DNA of 54,886 bases from a virus: the IMG/VR virus record IMGVR_UViG_3300019776_000172, positions 1-54,886 of that record; one strand, written 5' to 3'. Every line of letters begins with the position of its first letter. Within the stretch, counting starts at the first letter, position 1. Position numbers and translations under genes: made by a program. The notes under the pieces were generated by a model. That model was not told the DNA's origin. It saw only the letters and a list, made by a program, of their open reading frames with translations, and did no database searches. This document shows positions 5,233 through 26,529 of this stretch, piece by piece.

Positions 5233-5427
5233 TTAGAGGTTGAAGTCTTTGCGCTCCCTTTCGGCCACAAGGTCGATCAGGGTTCGCTTGGCATGTTCGA
5301 GGCCCGCGTACATGCCGACGGCCTTCCCATAGGCGAATGCATCGCCCGAGGAGGGCTGCGCCAACGCTTCATGAGCAATACGGGCTTGCTCTGTCTCCAA
5401 GCGCTGGAGCAGGGTCTCTATCCTCAT
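5233..5427 (-). CDS. Small helical protein, unknown
   Basis: This 64-residue protein is mostly helical (MRIETLLQRLETEQARIAHE, later KRTLIDLVAERERKDF). Its ATG overlaps the stop of the 46-residue gene upstream by four bases (ATGA), indicating translational coupling. It belongs to a set of four very small genes between portal and co-chaperonin. Minor head or assembly factor is a guess from position only. Confidence 0.65.
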   Translation of the reverse strand: MRIETLLQRLETEQARIAHEALAQPSSGDAFAYGKAVGMYAGLEHAKRTLIDLVAERERKDFNL

Positions 5428-8427: not shown

Positions 8428-8970
8428 TTATGCCGCGTATTTTCCATCTACACCATGATTGGTGTGAAAGCCATACTTGGCCTCTGCTGCCTTGCGGCAA
8501 CGAACCGCATCTTCGAACTCAGAAAACCTTCCAAGATTTATGAGTTTTCGATTGATGCGGATTTTTGCGTTCCATTTACCAAAGGCCTTACACCAGTATA
8601 CTCCCGTAATTCCGCTCGAATTGTTTTTCATTTTTGACATGTTTCGCGCGTTTTCTGCGGAAGAAACTTCGCGTAAATTTTCAATGCGATTATTCGAAGG
8701 ATCATGGTCGATGTGGTCAATGTGAGAAGAGGGCCACATCCCATAATGCAAAGCCCACGCCACTCGATGCGCAAACACATGTTTGCCATCTATCCGTCCT
8801 TGCAGATACCCCTGCCGATGCTTTCCAGTGAGTGCTGGACGCCCAGCCCATCGAGAGTTTCTTGTACCGCACATAGTCTCAGACGCGCGCCACTTGAACT
8901 TTCCTGTGTCTGGATCGTATGCAAGAAGTTGACGCAATCTTTCAATCGAAGGTATCGCGGCGGTAGCCAT
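8428..8970 (-). CDS. HNH homing endonuclease with AP2-like domain
   Basis: This 180-residue protein has an HNH motif in the middle (HRVAWALHYG, then HIDHIDHDPSNNRIENLREV) followed by an AP2-like DNA-binding domain (NNSSGITGVYWCKAFGKWNA). This is the usual arrangement of free-standing phage homing endonucleases. It lies between large terminase and portal, in a visibly more AT-rich stretch than its neighbours. It has its own promoter-like sequence at 9037-9065 and a leader hairpin at 9004-9030. The start at 8970 (MATAAIPSIERLR) follows AAAGGACTGCTATAC; longer frames lack support. Confidence 0.88.
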   Translation of the reverse strand: MATAAIPSIERLRQLLAYDPDTGKFKWRASETMCGTRNSRWAGRPALTGKHRQGYLQGRIDGKHVFAHRVAWALHYGMWPSSHIDHIDHDPSNNRIENLREVSSAENARNMSKMKNNSSGITGVYWCKAFGKWNAKIRINRKLINLGRFSEFEDAVRCRKAAEAKYGFHTNHGVDGKYAA

Positions 8971-9003
8971 GTATAGCAGTCCTTTTGCTTGCATGTTTAG
9001 AGC

Positions 9004-9030
9004 AGGCGTAGCGTTGGTAGCGTTACGCCT
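9004..9030 (-). promoter_or_regulatory. Leader hairpin of the HNH gene
   Basis: AGGCGTA pairs with TACGCCT across 13 bases containing a second short repeat (ACGC..GC). It lies seven bases past the -10-like hexamer at 9037-9042 and about 34 bases before the HNH start, so it would form the very 5' end of a transcript from that promoter. Confidence 0.4.
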
Positions 9031-9036
9031 GTTCGC

Positions 9037-9065
9037 GTTATACCGCATGCGAGAGGCGGTCACAA
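9037..9065 (-). promoter_or_regulatory. Promoter candidate for the HNH gene
   Basis: On the minus strand, TTGTGA and TATAAC are separated by 17 bases, starting one base past the stop codon of the large terminase. It matches the sigma-70 consensus in 4/6 and 5/6 positions. It would express the homing endonuclease separately from the late operon. Confidence 0.45.
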
Positions 9066-10544
9066 TCACTGACTGTACGGATTACTGACCACGGCAGGGG
9101 GTGGTCTGTCACCCTTCCAGTCGTCTTGCTTCTTGCGTGTCAGGTCGATCAGGCGCTTGTCCATCATCAGGCGGATAGCCTGCGTGGTCTGGTCAACGTG
9201 ATCGTCGTGCTTGATGGAGCCCTCACCTGTGAACGCGCAGAGCTGTGCGATGAGGGGCTCGCACCATGTGCGCGGTCGCCCCGGGTGCTTCTCGCTCTCT
9301 GGCACCCAGACGCGGCGCTGGGCGAAGATCGGGGAGGCGATGTGCAGGCGAGACAGCTTGTCTGCCCGGCCGGGGTTGTATGCATAAGCTTGGATGCCCT
9401 CACGATCCAGCATCTGACGCAGGGAGATCCCTGAGCCCTTGTCTTCAATCAGGAGGATGTCGGGCTTGCGGCCGGACGTGATGGGCTTGCTGCCGCCGAA
9501 CATGGGCTTGATCAGGGCTTGGTCGTCGTCCTCACCATAGCGCACGTTGAGCTCTTTCTTCACGCGCTTCATGAGATCCGGCAGGCCAAGGTGATCCTCC
9601 CAGCAGTCGAGCAGCATGACATGGCTCATGCTCTTGTAGTGGAAGACACCCCAGACGCCGCACGCTGTGGGATCTGGGTCGCCCTTCTTGTCGATGCTCT
9701 TCTCGGTGTATGCCGTGTCCAGCGACATGACGATCCAGTCGAGCTTGGGCAGCGGCTTCTTGGCGGGCCAGAGGTTCAGCCAGCTCCTGCGGATGACACC
9801 CTGCTCTTCGGGGTCGATCAGCTCGCCGTATAGCTCCTGACGGCCGAGGGTCGTGCCCTCATACTGCTCCACCTGCTTGAAGAAGCTGTCTGGAAGGTTG
9901 GCCTTGTTGTCATAGGTTGAGCCAGTGACCAAGATCCGGCCCTCTTTGGGGGCGCTCAGTTTGCGGATGATGTCCTTGGGCTTGGGCGTTGTCGTCCATA
10001 GCACCTGAGGGTTGGTGCCCAGACGCAGACCAAACATGAACATGTCCCATGTGTCTTGGTCGTACTGCCATGCCGCAAGCTCGTCGAGCCAGCCACGACA
10101 ATGCTGTGGGCCGCGCAGTCGCTCAGGCTTCTCAGCGGTGAAGCCACGGATGGTTGTCACGCCGCCCGCGATGTTCTTCATGTTGATGATCAGGTCAGAC
10201 TTGTTGTAATCGACCAGCAGCTCAGGGGGCAGCACGGACATGATACCGCTCTCACCCTCAAAGCATGTGAACTTCACGTCCTGATAGGTTGGCGCGATGA
10301 CGGCGCTGTCGAAGCCCGTCGGATCTTCATAGGCCGCGCGGCAGATCCACTCAGCGCCGACACGGGTCTTGCCGAAGCCACGCCCTGCCAGATAGCCGCA
10401 CTCACTCCAGCCACCCTCAGGCACGATCTGGTTGGGCCGAGCGGTCTCTGCCCACTTGCTCTGCCAGCTCAAATAGATCTGCTGCTCAAGAGTGAGCAAC
10501 GCAGCAATTTGCTCAGGGCTCGCGGTGGTGAGGAGATCGGTCAT
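9066..10544 (-). CDS. terL: Terminase large subunit
   Basis: This 492-residue packaging motor has a Walker A at residues 54-60 (GRGFGKT) and a Walker B with catalytic Glu at about 151-155 (GWLDE). The coupling segment follows (PQVLWTTTPKPKDIIRKL). The RNase H-like nuclease has acidic residues in DWIVMSLDTAY, ILLIEDKGSG and KHDDHVDQTTQAIRLMM. It translocates and cuts concatemeric DNA at the portal. The ATG at 10544 overlaps the stop of the upstream 77-residue gene. The length is normal for the family and the gene is intact; the next gene downstream is the inserted HNH gene. Confidence 0.96.
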   Translation of the reverse strand: MTDLLTTASPEQIAALLTLEQQIYLSWQSKWAETARPNQIVPEGGWSECGYLAGRGFGKTRVGAEWICRAAYEDPTGFDSAVIAPTYQDVKFTCFEGESGIMSVLPPELLVDYNKSDLIINMKNIAGGVTTIRGFTAEKPERLRGPQHCRGWLDELAAWQYDQDTWDMFMFGLRLGTNPQVLWTTTPKPKDIIRKLSAPKEGRILVTGSTYDNKANLPDSFFKQVEQYEGTTLGRQELYGELIDPEEQGVIRRSWLNLWPAKKPLPKLDWIVMSLDTAYTEKSIDKKGDPDPTACGVWGVFHYKSMSHVMLLDCWEDHLGLPDLMKRVKKELNVRYGEDDDQALIKPMFGGSKPITSGRKPDILLIEDKGSGISLRQMLDREGIQAYAYNPGRADKLSRLHIASPIFAQRRVWVPESEKHPGRPRTWCEPLIAQLCAFTGEGSIKHDDHVDQTTQAIRLMMDKRLIDLTRKKQDDWKGDRPPPAVVSNPYSQ

Positions 10545-10777: not shown

Positions 10778-10943
10778 TCCGGTATAACGTCAACGCATCG
10801 CGCAGTTGCAGGTTCATCTCGCGGATCTTGTCGTAGCGGTCGTTGGCCTGATCCAGTGCTTGGTTCAGCGCGGCGCACTCGCATGCGACCTGACCGAGCC
10901 GGGTCTCCAGCTCCCTGATGCGACGCCATGGGTTCCAGATCAT
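10770..10943 (-). CDS. Short coiled-coil protein
   Basis: This 57-residue frame starts MIWNPWRRIRELETRLGQVA and continues as one amphipathic heptad-like helix to RDALTLYRNA. Its ATG overlaps the stop of the small terminase (ATGA), which supports expression by coupling. It resembles small coiled-coil proteins of phage packaging modules; the function is unknown. Confidence 0.65.
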   Translation of the reverse strand: MIWNPWRRIRELETRLGQVACECAALNQALDQANDRYDKIREMNLQLRDALTLYRNA

Positions 10944-11386
10944 TGGGAGGCCTTCTTCTCGCGCACCATAGCAGCGGCCGTCTTGAGGGCATCTTGCACC
11001 TCAGGCGGGCTGACTATACCCACCTGACCGCTGTGATCGACGTTCTTGCTCTCACGCCAATCCTTGGGGAAGCGGGCGGCCATGGATCTGGCCCAAAGAG
11101 CGTTCTGGAACTTGTCTGCGAAGAGGGCGATGCGGCCCTGTTTCTCCCACCAAGACTGGGAAAGTTGCATTGCTTGGGTAAAGGCTTCCAAAAACTCGGG
11201 ATGCTTGTCGGGCCAATTGGTCTCAAGCGTGTCTCTCTTCACGCCGATCTCTGCTGCCATTTCGACGACTGAATAGCCTTGGGCCCCCATGCGTAGGACT
11301 TCCTCACAATACTTGGGATCGTACTTTGTGGGTCGACCGAAGGCATTCTTGTATGGGAGGGGCTTGCCGTATTCGTCTTCATTCAT
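10940..11386 (-). CDS. terS: Terminase small subunit
   Basis: This 148-residue protein immediately precedes the packaging genes. Its N-terminal DNA-binding part is a helix-turn-helix of the GRPTKYDPKYCEEVLRMGAQ type continuing YSVVEMAAEIGVKRDTLETN, typical of small terminase subunits that recognise the packaging site. Trp- and Gln-rich helices follow (SQSWWEKQGRIALFADKFQN). The start at 11386 follows GGAG with a seven-base spacer. The frame stays open to 11575 but that extension covers the 11455-11491 hairpin and has no ribosome site, so it is not used here. Confidence 0.82.
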   Translation of the reverse strand: MNEDEYGKPLPYKNAFGRPTKYDPKYCEEVLRMGAQGYSVVEMAAEIGVKRDTLETNWPDKHPEFLEAFTQAMQLSQSWWEKQGRIALFADKFQNALWARSMAARFPKDWRESKNVDHSGQVGIVSPPEVQDALKTAAAMVREKKASQ

Positions 11387-11454
11387 CGCGTGCTCCGTAT
11401 CGGGACAGTGCTTCCGACTGGAGCCTATGTAACTCTTGGGGTACTGCGATGCAA

Positions 11455-11491
11455 TGGGGCGATGATGTAGAGCCCAATTACACCACCGCCC
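11455..11491 (-). ncRNA. Structured element D: 14-bp RNA hairpin
   Basis: In minus-strand RNA, GGGGCGGTGGTGTA pairs completely with TACATCATCGCCCC (two G-U pairs) around a nine-base loop. On the plus strand the same positions give A-C mismatches, so the fold is specific to minus-strand RNA. It ends in CCCCATT like elements A and C, about 70 bases before terS. Confidence 0.5.
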
Positions 11492-11582
11492 CGGCACGTT
11501 GGATGGCGGAACCCCCGAAACGCTCATCCTACTGACATATACCATAAAGCCATTTGTGTTGTCGGGATGGGACATGGAATAA

Positions 11583-11618
11583 ATGGGGTGGCGGGATTAG
11601 TGCCCAACTCCACCCCAT
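11583..11618 (-). ncRNA. Structured element C: 9-bp hairpin with inner stem
   Basis: ATGGGGTGG pairs perfectly with CCACCCCAT. The 18-base interior contains a second GGG/CCC pairing. It is one of four consecutive hairpins in the leader before terS. Confidence 0.5.
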
Positions 11619-11625
11619 CCAAGAA

Positions 11626-11651
11626 CGAGGGAGTGCCACGGTTGTCCCTCG
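11626..11651 (-). ncRNA. Structured element B: 7-bp hairpin
   Basis: CGAGGGA pairs perfectly with TCCCTCG around a 12-base loop. It lies 11 bases from element A and seven bases from element C. Confidence 0.45.
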
Positions 11652-11662
11652 CCTCTTTCAAT

Positions 11663-11716
11663 GGGGTGAGTGCTGATCAGCTAAGTCACCGGGATCTCCC
11701 AGCGACATCTCACCCC
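11663..11716 (-). ncRNA. Structured element A: three-way junction
   Basis: In minus-strand RNA the outer stem GGGGTGAG/CTCACCCC encloses two arms. The first is nine base pairs (GTCGCTGGG with CCCGGTGAC, two G-U pairs, AGAT loop). The second is GCT-GATC-AGC. The pairing covers nearly all bases of the 54-base segment, which suggests a selected RNA fold. Confidence 0.5.
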
Positions 11717-11735
11717 GCCTTGGACCGGCAATTGA

Positions 11736-11764
11736 TGTTTACGATGCCATTTTGTGCGCGTCAA
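11736..11764 (-). promoter_or_regulatory. Promoter candidate for the structured leader and terS
   Basis: On the minus strand, TTGACG is followed after 17 bases by TAAACA. The -35 matches 5/6 and the -10 matches 3/6 of the sigma-70 consensus. It lies just past the tRNA-Thr 3' end and would drive the structured leader and packaging genes. Confidence 0.35.
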
Positions 11765-11769
11765 TTATC

Positions 11770-11843
11770 TGGTGCCAGATGTAGGGATCGAACCTACGTC
11801 ACCGGGTTACAAAGCCGGGGTAATTCCATTATACTAATCTGGC
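11770..11843 (-). tRNA. tRNA-Thr (anticodon TGT)
   Basis: This is 74 bases with encoded CCA. The acceptor GCCAGAT/ATCTGGC pairs perfectly, as does the T-arm GTAGG/CCTAC around TTCGATC. The anticodon loop is TTTGTAA (anticodon TGT, reads ACA). The D-arm is short (GTA/TAC), and the last anticodon-stem pair is a C-C mismatch, so it may be slightly degenerate. Its first base directly follows the last base of tRNA-Pro. Confidence 0.88.
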
Positions 11844-11919
11844 TGGTCTGGGTGACAGGACTTGAACCTACAACCTCGTGCGCCCAAAGCACGCGCTCTA
11901 CCACTTGAGCTACACCCAG
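11844..11919 (-). tRNA. tRNA-Pro (anticodon TGG)
   Basis: This is 76 bases with encoded CCA. The acceptor is CTGGGTG/CACCCAG, the D-arm GCTC/GAGC, the anticodon arm CGTGC-TTTGGGC-GCACG (anticodon TGG, reads CCA), and the T-loop TTCAAGT. All four arms are present. The CCA end abuts tRNA-Thr with no spacer, so one endonucleolytic cut would produce both ends. Confidence 0.9.
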
Positions 11920-11989
11920 ATGCGGGCGCAGCAATGCCACGCCCTTAGAGTGTCGGTCGGGGGAGATGCGTTCGGTTGGTCATGCGGTC

Positions 11990-12018
11990 TCTATAGCGGC
12001 ATGGGCCATTCAAGTAAA
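11990..12018 (-). promoter_or_regulatory. Promoter candidate for the tRNA genes
   Basis: On the minus strand, TTTACT and TATAGA are separated by 17 bases, about 70 bases upstream of tRNA-Pro. Both hexamers match sigma-70 in 4/6 positions. Following directly after the 12023-12046 hairpin, it would start a new transcript for tRNAs and possibly the packaging operon. Confidence 0.4.
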
Positions 12019-12022
12019 GGTT

Positions 12023-12046
12023 GGCATACGTTTGACCCGGTATGCC
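12023..12046 (-). terminator. Hairpin at the end of the leftward early operon
   Basis: GGCATAC pairs perfectly with GTATGCC around a 10-base loop, and on the minus strand AACCTTTACTT follows. It lies 25 bases past the stop of the last early gene (12071) and directly before the tRNA promoter candidate, so it plausibly ends early transcription. Confidence 0.45.
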
Positions 12047-12070
12047 AGCGAGCGGGACTTCCACGCTTGC

Positions 12071-12427
12071 CTATAAGGCGGGGCTGAGGGGGGTGGAAGT
12101 CTTTTCCTTAATCTCGTTGAGCAGTTGCAGGCGGTCCTCATAGTAATCGGGCCACTTCTCGTGCAGCGTGAGGATGCGGTCCCTGATGCGGATCATGCGA
12201 GCGGCGGCATCGTTCGTCTGGCGCTCGATGTCCCTCCCCTCCTCTCCTCCCATGAATGCAGTTGCTGACAGATCATAATGCTCAATGAGGGCGCTGGCAA
12301 ATGCCATGAGCAGGCTGTTGAGGTCGAGCTTATATTGCCGCGCGGCCTCCTCTGTGTCTTGGTTCACCTTGTCGGCGATGTCGTCGAGGCTCTTGAGCCA
12401 CTGCTCGCGGGTTAGTGGTGTCGCCAT
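12071..12427 (-). CDS. Hypothetical helical protein
   Basis: This is the last gene of the leftward early operon: 118 residues, mainly charged helices (EQWLKSLDDIADKVNQDTEE and MIRIRDRILTLHEKWPDYYE). The start follows GGGGAGATAACC, a strong ribosome site. No family is recognised, and it has no signal peptide or membrane segment. Confidence 0.7.
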   Translation of the reverse strand: MATPLTREQWLKSLDDIADKVNQDTEEAARQYKLDLNSLLMAFASALIEHYDLSATAFMGGEEGRDIERQTNDAAARMIRIRDRILTLHEKWPDYYEDRLQLLNEIKEKTSTPLSPAL

Positions 12428-12429
12428 GG

Positions 12430-12753
12430 TTATCTCCCCTTGATGGCGTCGTAGATGTCGAGCTTGTACTGCGCCACCAAGCCGTAGTGATAGCCGTTGC
12501 GCAACTCATGCTCGATGGCCTCTGCGGTTGTTTCCTCTGGCTCCCAAGAATGCTCAAGGCCGTAGCAAGAGCAGTGAGATCCCTGCACCCGATAAAGCTT
12601 GTCATCCTGTTTGTAGATCACCAGACCTTCACCCTCATAGCCGTCCACGTCATAGCAGGCGAAGAGGACATCGGGCTCGGGCATTTCAATTGAGAAGTTG
12701 AACTGGACACTGGCCCAGCCCTCCTCTGCGAAACCACCAAAATACTTGGTCAT
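12430..12753 (-). CDS. Conserved small phage protein
   Basis: This 107-residue protein starts MTKYFGGFAEEGWASVQFNF and carries a CSCYG motif followed by LEHSWEPEETTAEAIEHEL. This layout is common in small accessory proteins of phages of many hosts, of unknown role. The ATG at 12753 is preceded by GAGGACGATTGACC and overlaps the upstream stop; a TTG six bases earlier is less likely. Confidence 0.7.
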   Translation of the reverse strand: MTKYFGGFAEEGWASVQFNFSIEMPEPDVLFACYDVDGYEGEGLVIYKQDDKLYRVQGSHCSCYGLEHSWEPEETTAEAIEHELRNGYHYGLVAQYKLDIYDAIKGR

Positions 12754-26478: not shown

Positions 26479-26485
26479 CTTTACC

Positions 26486-26522
26486 CCTGTTTAGATTTGA
26501 TATAGTGTCAAGTCTAAACAGG
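26486..26522 (+). promoter_or_regulatory. RBS-sequestering inverted repeat with internal -10
   Basis: CCTGTTTAGATTTGA and TCAAGTCTAAACAGG pair in 14 of 15 positions (the fifteenth is G-U in RNA) around TATAGTG. The right arm ends inside the ribosome site AGGAGG (26520-26525) of the HNH gene at 26530. The loop contains TATAGT, a good -10 hexamer. Read-through RNA would hide the ribosome site; RNA started from within the loop would not. Confidence 0.65.
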
Positions 26523-26529
26523 AGGTCAT

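Follow-up and report, generated by a model that had tools for sequence, protein, structure and literature searches.

What are the strong RNA folds that lie between two tRNA genes and the terminase small subunit gene (terS) of this virus, and do they belong to a wider class of phage RNA? The window, meaning the whole stretch of DNA that was analyzed, is a single viral record from IMG/VR, 54,886 bases long and classified as linear, with its late genes on the minus strand (Table 1). Of the named phages, Caulobacter phages RW, KcrB, RLK, and GB2A come nearest, with a TerL identity of 61%, and the TerL of the window is common to 80 IMG/VR loci at 46 to 83% identity. Between terS and the next gene upstream (11387-12070), we found no convincing gene besides the two tRNAs. 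A search of IMG/VR gave no relative of the 118-amino-acid gene that precedes the tRNAs. Another tRNA near terminase genes, a tRNA-Val, is annotated in Caulobacter phage RW at 5328-5401, directly downstream of terL. Elsewhere in the window, an HNH endonuclease gene (PHROG 99; 8428-9069, minus strand) between terL and the portal gene is a possible homing gene, and a 12-bp inverted repeat at 26484-26524, CTCCTGTTTAGA/TCTAAACAGGGG with TTGACA within its loop, is a possible operator-promoter.

Table 1. Features of the tRNA-terS junction in the window, in the order in which minus-strand transcription would meet them
Feature	Coordinates	Strand	Sequence or structure	Evidence
Hairpin A	12056..12101	-	9-bp stem GACTTCCAC/GTGGAAGTC around the upstream gene's stop codon	-16.6 kcal/mol, z -4.2
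E0	12022..12052	-	H-type pseudoknot; S1 CUCG/CGGG, S2 UGGCAUAC/GUAUGCCA	Covariance model R1, relatives, covariation
Putative tRNA promoter	11990..12018	-	TTTACT-N17-TATAGA, upstream of tRNAs	Sequence; inferred, under scan threshold
tRNA-Pro (TGG)	11844..11919	-		ARAGORN; Rfam 63.5 bits
tRNA-Thr (TGT)	11770..11843	-	CCA encoded	ARAGORN; Rfam 59.4 bits
Weak promoter-like site	11736..11764	-	TTGACG-N17-TAAACA, directly upstream of E1	Sequence; under scan threshold
E1	11663..11716	-	Three-way junction closed by GGGGTGAG/CTCACCCC, then ATT	-32.1 kcal/mol, z -4.0
E2'	11625..11652	-	7-8 bp hairpin GCGAGGGA/TCCCTCGT, tail TTCTT	-11.5 kcal/mol, z -0.9
E2	11580..11621	-	Hairpin GGGGTGG...CCACCCC, inner TGGG/CCCG stem, tail ATTTATT	-22.6 kcal/mol, z -3.5
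E3	11456..11492	-	14-bp hairpin GGGGCGGTGGTGTA/TACATCATCGCCCC, two G-U pairs	-26.2 kcal/mol, z -3.5
terS promoter	11426..11454	-	TTGCAT-N17-TACATA	Position kept in relatives
terS leader motif	11392..11415	-	GGAAGCMCTGTC...CGGAGC, including ribosome-binding site	26 IMG/VR stretches
terS	10940..11386	-	Terminase small subunit	PHROG 309, E 6.7e-19
terL	9066..10544	-	Terminase large subunit	PHROG 38, E 1.4e-22

In the 5'-to-3' direction of the minus strand, from 11716 to 11456, the array consists of E1, E2', E2, and E3. The original prediction of four strong folds at about these places holds in that all four are present on this strand, but E2' taken alone is unexceptional (z -0.9). E2 is a hairpin as predicted, with a stem of 7 G-C-rich pairs, extendable to 11-12 bp, rather than the proposed 9 bp. 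E3 likewise has its 14 bp and two G-U pairs, but the claim that it exists only in minus-strand RNA is too strong: the plus strand also folds (-19.0 kcal/mol, z -3.2), albeit with two A.C mismatches, and the stem is continuous only on the minus strand. The entire array interval has a z of -3.1 as minus-strand RNA versus -1.6 as plus-strand RNA.

The recurrence of GGGG...CCCCATT in E1, E2, and E3, also pointed out in the original prediction, is borne out by simulation. Three such hairpins stand within ~260 nt, whereas 100 order-2 Markov simulations of the 54.9-kb genome, both strands included, yielded 0.02 on average and 1 at most. The hairpin array is real and not a product of chance. E2 and E3 share the loop letters TTGGGC[A/T]CTA and align locally at p=0.001 (dinucleotide shuffles), and by sequence they look like copies of one another; E1 resembles the other elements weakly (p=0.02-0.07). 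Tandem structured repeats in a phage recall the RNA decoy of phage PhiTE, a mimic of the antitoxin of a type III toxin-antitoxin defense (PMC3475682), which likewise consists of phage-borne repeated RNA elements. The units of the window array, however, are unequal in length and fold and are not near-identical repeats, so that its architecture is a different one, and we give barely any credence to an antitoxin mimic here.

A search of the window against Rfam recovers only the two tRNAs, with nothing else below E 1.4 in 11380-12110, in line with the proposal of a structured noncoding RNA outside known families. Degenerate tRNA-like sequences had been offered as one identity for the folds, which would make them remnants of a larger tRNA cluster. 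The array does adjoin the tRNAs, and E2 is shaped like an acceptor plus T-arm minihelix (7 bp and 4 bp, with a 7-nt loop). However, the tRNA covariance model finds no match in E1-E3 even at E <= 5, the E2 loop has no TTCRA motif, the stems are intact rather than decayed, and the 18 related viral records have no tRNAs anywhere. This reading is already disfavored and we regard it as very improbable.

We found no homologues of E1-E3 in 50,697 phage records (apart from one chance match) or in the TerL and TerS relatives. No relative in the collections searched carries E1 or E2. A lack of conserved pairing in related phages had been named as grounds for refuting the original reading, and half of this is the case: E1 and E2 have no counterpart there, but the position of E3 does carry a paired element, of a different sort (see below). 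E3 was also considered as a second pseudoknot, formed between an upstream CCAA and the loop TTGG; we rejected this on the reasoning that 7 nt of loop would probably be too short to bridge a stem of 14 bp.

From which promoter would these folds be transcribed? The terS promoter lies downstream of E3, so E1-E3 are not in the terS leader and would be transcribed only from upstream. They may be part of the tRNA transcript, or of a short RNA driven by the weak promoter-like site at 11764. A promoter-like element directly upstream of E1 was part of the original prediction; the sequence is there, but it is weak and misses the scan threshold, and this site at 11764-11736 has less support than the promoter between E3 and terS, whose position is kept in relatives. 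Transcription from 11764 could give a separate trans-acting small RNA of about 150 nt, comprising E1-E2'-E2 and ending in the U-rich tail of E2 (ATTTATT). Consistent with such an RNA, 11729-11572 folds compactly (-73 kcal/mol), and the setting is comparable to the T4 tRNA cluster, which has stable non-tRNA RNAs. The weakness of the promoter, the lack of any homologue found, and the fact that E3 is left unexplained all count against it, and we consider a separate small RNA unlikely.

We scanned 10900-12500 for intrinsic terminators (G+C-rich hairpin, loop of 3-8, direct U-run of 5 in 8) and found none. The tails of E2 and E2' are T-rich, that of E2 with 5 T in 8, but the array loops are long and the U-runs short, and the loop of E2 exceeds the length that the scan allows. 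Intrinsic termination at the array is therefore a candidate only, since no hairpin passes the scan despite the T-rich tails.

The same junction in relatives of the window has a different content. In five of them (L019, L021, L025, L038, and L045; the same holds in L039), the terS leader follows a promoter (TTGCAT, 17 nt, TA...), and a pseudoknot hairpin, TGGCATAT CGGGTTCAAC ATATGCCA, stands 3-5 nt upstream of the -35 box of that promoter. No tRNAs are found at the junction in these five. The relatives read gene - hairpin A - pseudoknot - terS promoter - terS, and the window reads gene - hairpin A - E0 - tRNA promoter - tRNA-Pro - tRNA-Thr - E1 - E2' - E2 - E3 - terS promoter - terS. The window thus has its own pseudoknot, E0 (TGGCATAC CGGGTCAAAC GTATGCCA, 12047-12022), upstream of the tRNAs and their promoter, and at the terS promoter E3 takes the pseudoknot's place, with the -35 box TTGCAT beginning one base past the E3 stem. 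Hairpin A was noted directly before the pseudoknot in the window, L038, and L021; in L038 its stem is CTTCCAT/ATGGAAG, a C-G to T-A change.

These comparisons also bear on packaging, another suggested role, in which the array would be a pac- or cos-type region of DNA inverted repeats near terS, bound by the small terminase. The array does adjoin terS, consists of repeated inverted repeats, and includes GATC palindromes inside E1. However, no inspected relative that shares the terminase has the array, the folding signal favors one RNA strand, with the E3 mismatches being G-U on the transcribed strand, and what is conserved on the terS side is the promoter and a short leader rather than the array. 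A packaging region is thus quite improbable. The leader motif itself stands before terS wherever inspected and may be a translational control or packaging-related signal. As GGAAGC[A/C]CTGTC...CGGAGC (window, L004, L005, L007, L019, and L085-L109), it is retained while its surroundings change completely.

To which family does E0 belong? A hairpin pattern scan identified clearly different phages (L110-L115) in which CCCG immediately precedes the stem and the loop contains CGGG; as these two can pair, the element is predicted to form an H-type pseudoknot. Its consensus is NNCG-C-UGGCANAC-CGNN-AAA-GUNUGCC, a 27-nt element with an A-rich linker. The covariance model R1, built from 20 sequences of which E0 is not one, scores E0 at 46.2 bits (E 3.9e-9), with S2 (TGGCANAC/GTNTGCCA) intact. 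S1 of E0 fits NNCG/CGNN either as CUCG/CGGG with one U-G pair or as CCCG/CGGG with a longer loop. Since the first pattern partly fixed CCCG/CGGG, a second scan left the outer S1 letters free (CGCTGGCANACCGN{4,20}GTNTGCC). Together, after removal of re-fetched duplicates, the searches gave at least 139 copies on at least 126 loci, with two to four copies in several phages. The record of L144 (G027) has three within 1.7 kb (2050, 3405, and 3693).

Among the 139 copies listed, the first S1 pair beyond the fixed CG/CG is formed in every one, by six pair types (C-G 115, G-C 13, T-A 4, T-G 3, A-T 2, and G-T 2), and the second outer pair is formed in 115. Both extra pairs are present in 119 of 143 listed copies (before duplicate removal) versus a mean of 47 and a maximum of 64 with permuted partners, a count inflated for those copies whose search pattern prescribed CCCG/CGGG. 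With the outer letters left free, searches also return G-C, T-A, and A-T changes, as in AAGCG/CGCTT (the isolate Xanthomonas phage XAJ2), ATCG/CGAT (L233), and CCAACG/CGTTGG, the wholly different S1 of one L144 copy. Of the 119 pattern matches listed, 115 have G-C, T-A, or C-G at the free S2 column. The first 20-sequence alignment has 14 two-sided changes versus 4.6 in shuffles; as the sequences are partly related, such covariation counts exceed the number of independent events and serve as support, not as probabilities. On this comparative evidence, both stems of the predicted pseudoknot covary. The core CGCUGGCANACCG is invariant among the copies, with part of this fixity due to the search patterns.

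The covariance model finds no pseudoknot in 11380-11720, and E3 has no pseudoknot core. Aligned with the relatives' pseudoknot (TGGTGTAATTGGGCTCTACATCATCGCCCCATT versus TGGCATATCGGGTTCAACATATGCCACCATT), E3 gives p=0.014 for L019 and p=0.41, no better than chance, for the L038 version; local alignment with E0 gives p=0.38 for E2 and p=0.996 for E3. Because of this last value, a descent of E3 from the pseudoknot would have to be argued from the relatives' version only. By sequence, E1, E2, and E3 thus fall outside the pseudoknot family, with E3 at best a divergent descendant. In the simplest history, a cassette of the tRNA promoter, two tRNAs, and E1-E2 would have come to lie between the ancestral pseudoknot and the promoter of terS, with E3 either a diverged pseudoknot copy or part of that cassette. 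L102 has an unrelated insert of roughly 75-85 nt (11248-11330) that separates the pseudoknot from the terS promoter, where the window has its cassette, and therefore the junction appears to have been disturbed at least twice.

Copies of the pseudoknot elsewhere occupy a consistent position. Of the 115 listed copies whose S1 has 4 bp or more, 98 are preceded within 120 nt by the stop codon closing a long open frame (median, 14 nt), 92 have such a frame starting within 120 nt downstream, and 46 are followed by a U-run within 14 nt, versus none of 115 in the upstream control. A stop lies within 60 nt upstream of 92 of 139 listed copies on the sense strand versus 25 of 139 on the antisense strand. 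Many copies have no U-run and end 10-30 nt short of the next start codon. The 92 upstream proteins, among the copies listed, fall into 37 unrelated groups, the largest being a Thr-rich protein of unknown function (16), the major head protein (12; PHROG 3437), and single-strand-binding protein (SSB; 12; PHROG 1192), with a further SSB group (PHROG 9002). The pseudoknot stands directly before a tRNA in L114, L233, L263, L290, L372, and the window and directly after one in L340.

The family is absent or rare in the other collections that we searched. Rfam has no match to the pseudoknot in sixteen loci, relaxed thresholds included, or in the window. The exact CCCG form is not found in 257 Gb of bacterial and archaeal genomes, where a looser form has 5 matches, about chance by estimate; the general pattern has 4 matches in 398 bacterial genomes of one phylum versus 0 for a reversed-pattern control, with a full S2 in one of the four by eye. 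It is rare in the cultured phage records searched. A literature search for the core sequence returned one unrelated paper, and we found no description in the open-access literature. Within the bounds of that literature and Rfam, then, the pseudoknot looks like an undescribed phage mRNA 3'-end element.

Several known systems invite comparison. REP/BIME elements and intrinsic terminators are intercistronic 3'-end hairpins, and the window elements are like them in being sense-strand G+C-rich stem-loops in gaps after a stop codon or tRNA, some with U-runs. They differ in that the E0 family is an H-type pseudoknot with an invariant core and many copies without a U-run, while E1-E3 miss the terminator scan. 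T4 gene 32, the phage SSB gene, carries a small H-type pseudoknot in its mRNA 5' leader. Members of the E0 family are small H-type pseudoknots too and can accompany a phage SSB gene, but they lie just after the SSB stop and follow capsid and other genes as well. The STAXI motif (RF01728) is a pseudoknot near single-stranded-DNA-binding protein genes (PMC2864571) and shares this neighborhood with the E0 family; unlike that family, it has 2-3 tandem copies and UUCG loops, and its model scores over the cut-off in 0 of 16 records. Theta ribozymes cleave within 5 nt of a tRNA 3' end (PMC10879173) and are likewise structured, pseudoknotted RNAs adjoining phage tRNAs. A theta ribozyme was rejected for E1, which starts 53 nt away (tRNA-Thr ends at 11770, E1 starts at 11716) and is not an HDV-like double pseudoknot; E0 differs in lying upstream of the tRNAs and having two short stems only.

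The original observation is confirmed, and its interpretation is partly supported. As the best explanation, held tentatively and at slightly less than an even chance, we propose that the array serves a small tRNA transcription unit as its structured, phage-specific 3' trailer, the unit lying between the ancestral intercistronic pseudoknot E0 and the terS promoter. Both the transcript boundaries and the termination or protection function are what we infer from the sequence. The stem-loops would stop or thin out transcription ahead of terS, insulating it, and may preserve the tRNA precursor by blocking 3'-to-5' exonucleases. Such a trailer is favored by the minus-strand folding excess together with the recurrence of GGGG...CCCCATT; by the promoter position in relatives, according to which transcription of terS begins downstream of E3 and of the pseudoknot in relatives; by the pseudoknot in relatives standing directly at the terS promoter, with no tRNAs, and by the L102 insert at this junction; by the alignments of E2 with E3 and of E3 with the L019 pseudoknot; by the T-rich tails of E2 and E2'; and by E0 belonging to a pseudoknot family with covarying stems whose copies elsewhere follow stop codons on the sense strand, some adjoining tRNA genes. 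On the other side, the array fails the terminator scan, E3 is without the pseudoknot core, and E1 is only weakly like the other elements.

For the pseudoknot, a broader role can be proposed. Its position after stop codons on the sense strand, behind genes for bulk products, often with a U-run though often without, and short of the next start, is as expected for an element between cistrons that generates mRNA 3' ends or shields them. The fixed stem letters of the core exceed the needs of a plain terminator or barrier and so hint at a specific partner, itself a candidate only, as the search patterns themselves account for some of the fixity. We give an even chance to the pseudoknot being a widespread, undescribed class of cis-acting phage RNA that sits after the stops of heavily expressed genes (SSB and major capsid protein) and between genes and tRNAs and that sets mRNA 3' ends or stability, its invariant core suggesting a protein or ligand partner. 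By itself, the array is a local curiosity, probably the structured tRNA trailer of one phage, and the pseudoknot, the firmer of the two results, is of wider use. If the proposal is true, many unrelated uncultured phages would carry an RNA control device that phage annotation leaves unmarked, and because it marks intercistronic junctions, the pseudoknot may aid phage gene calling.
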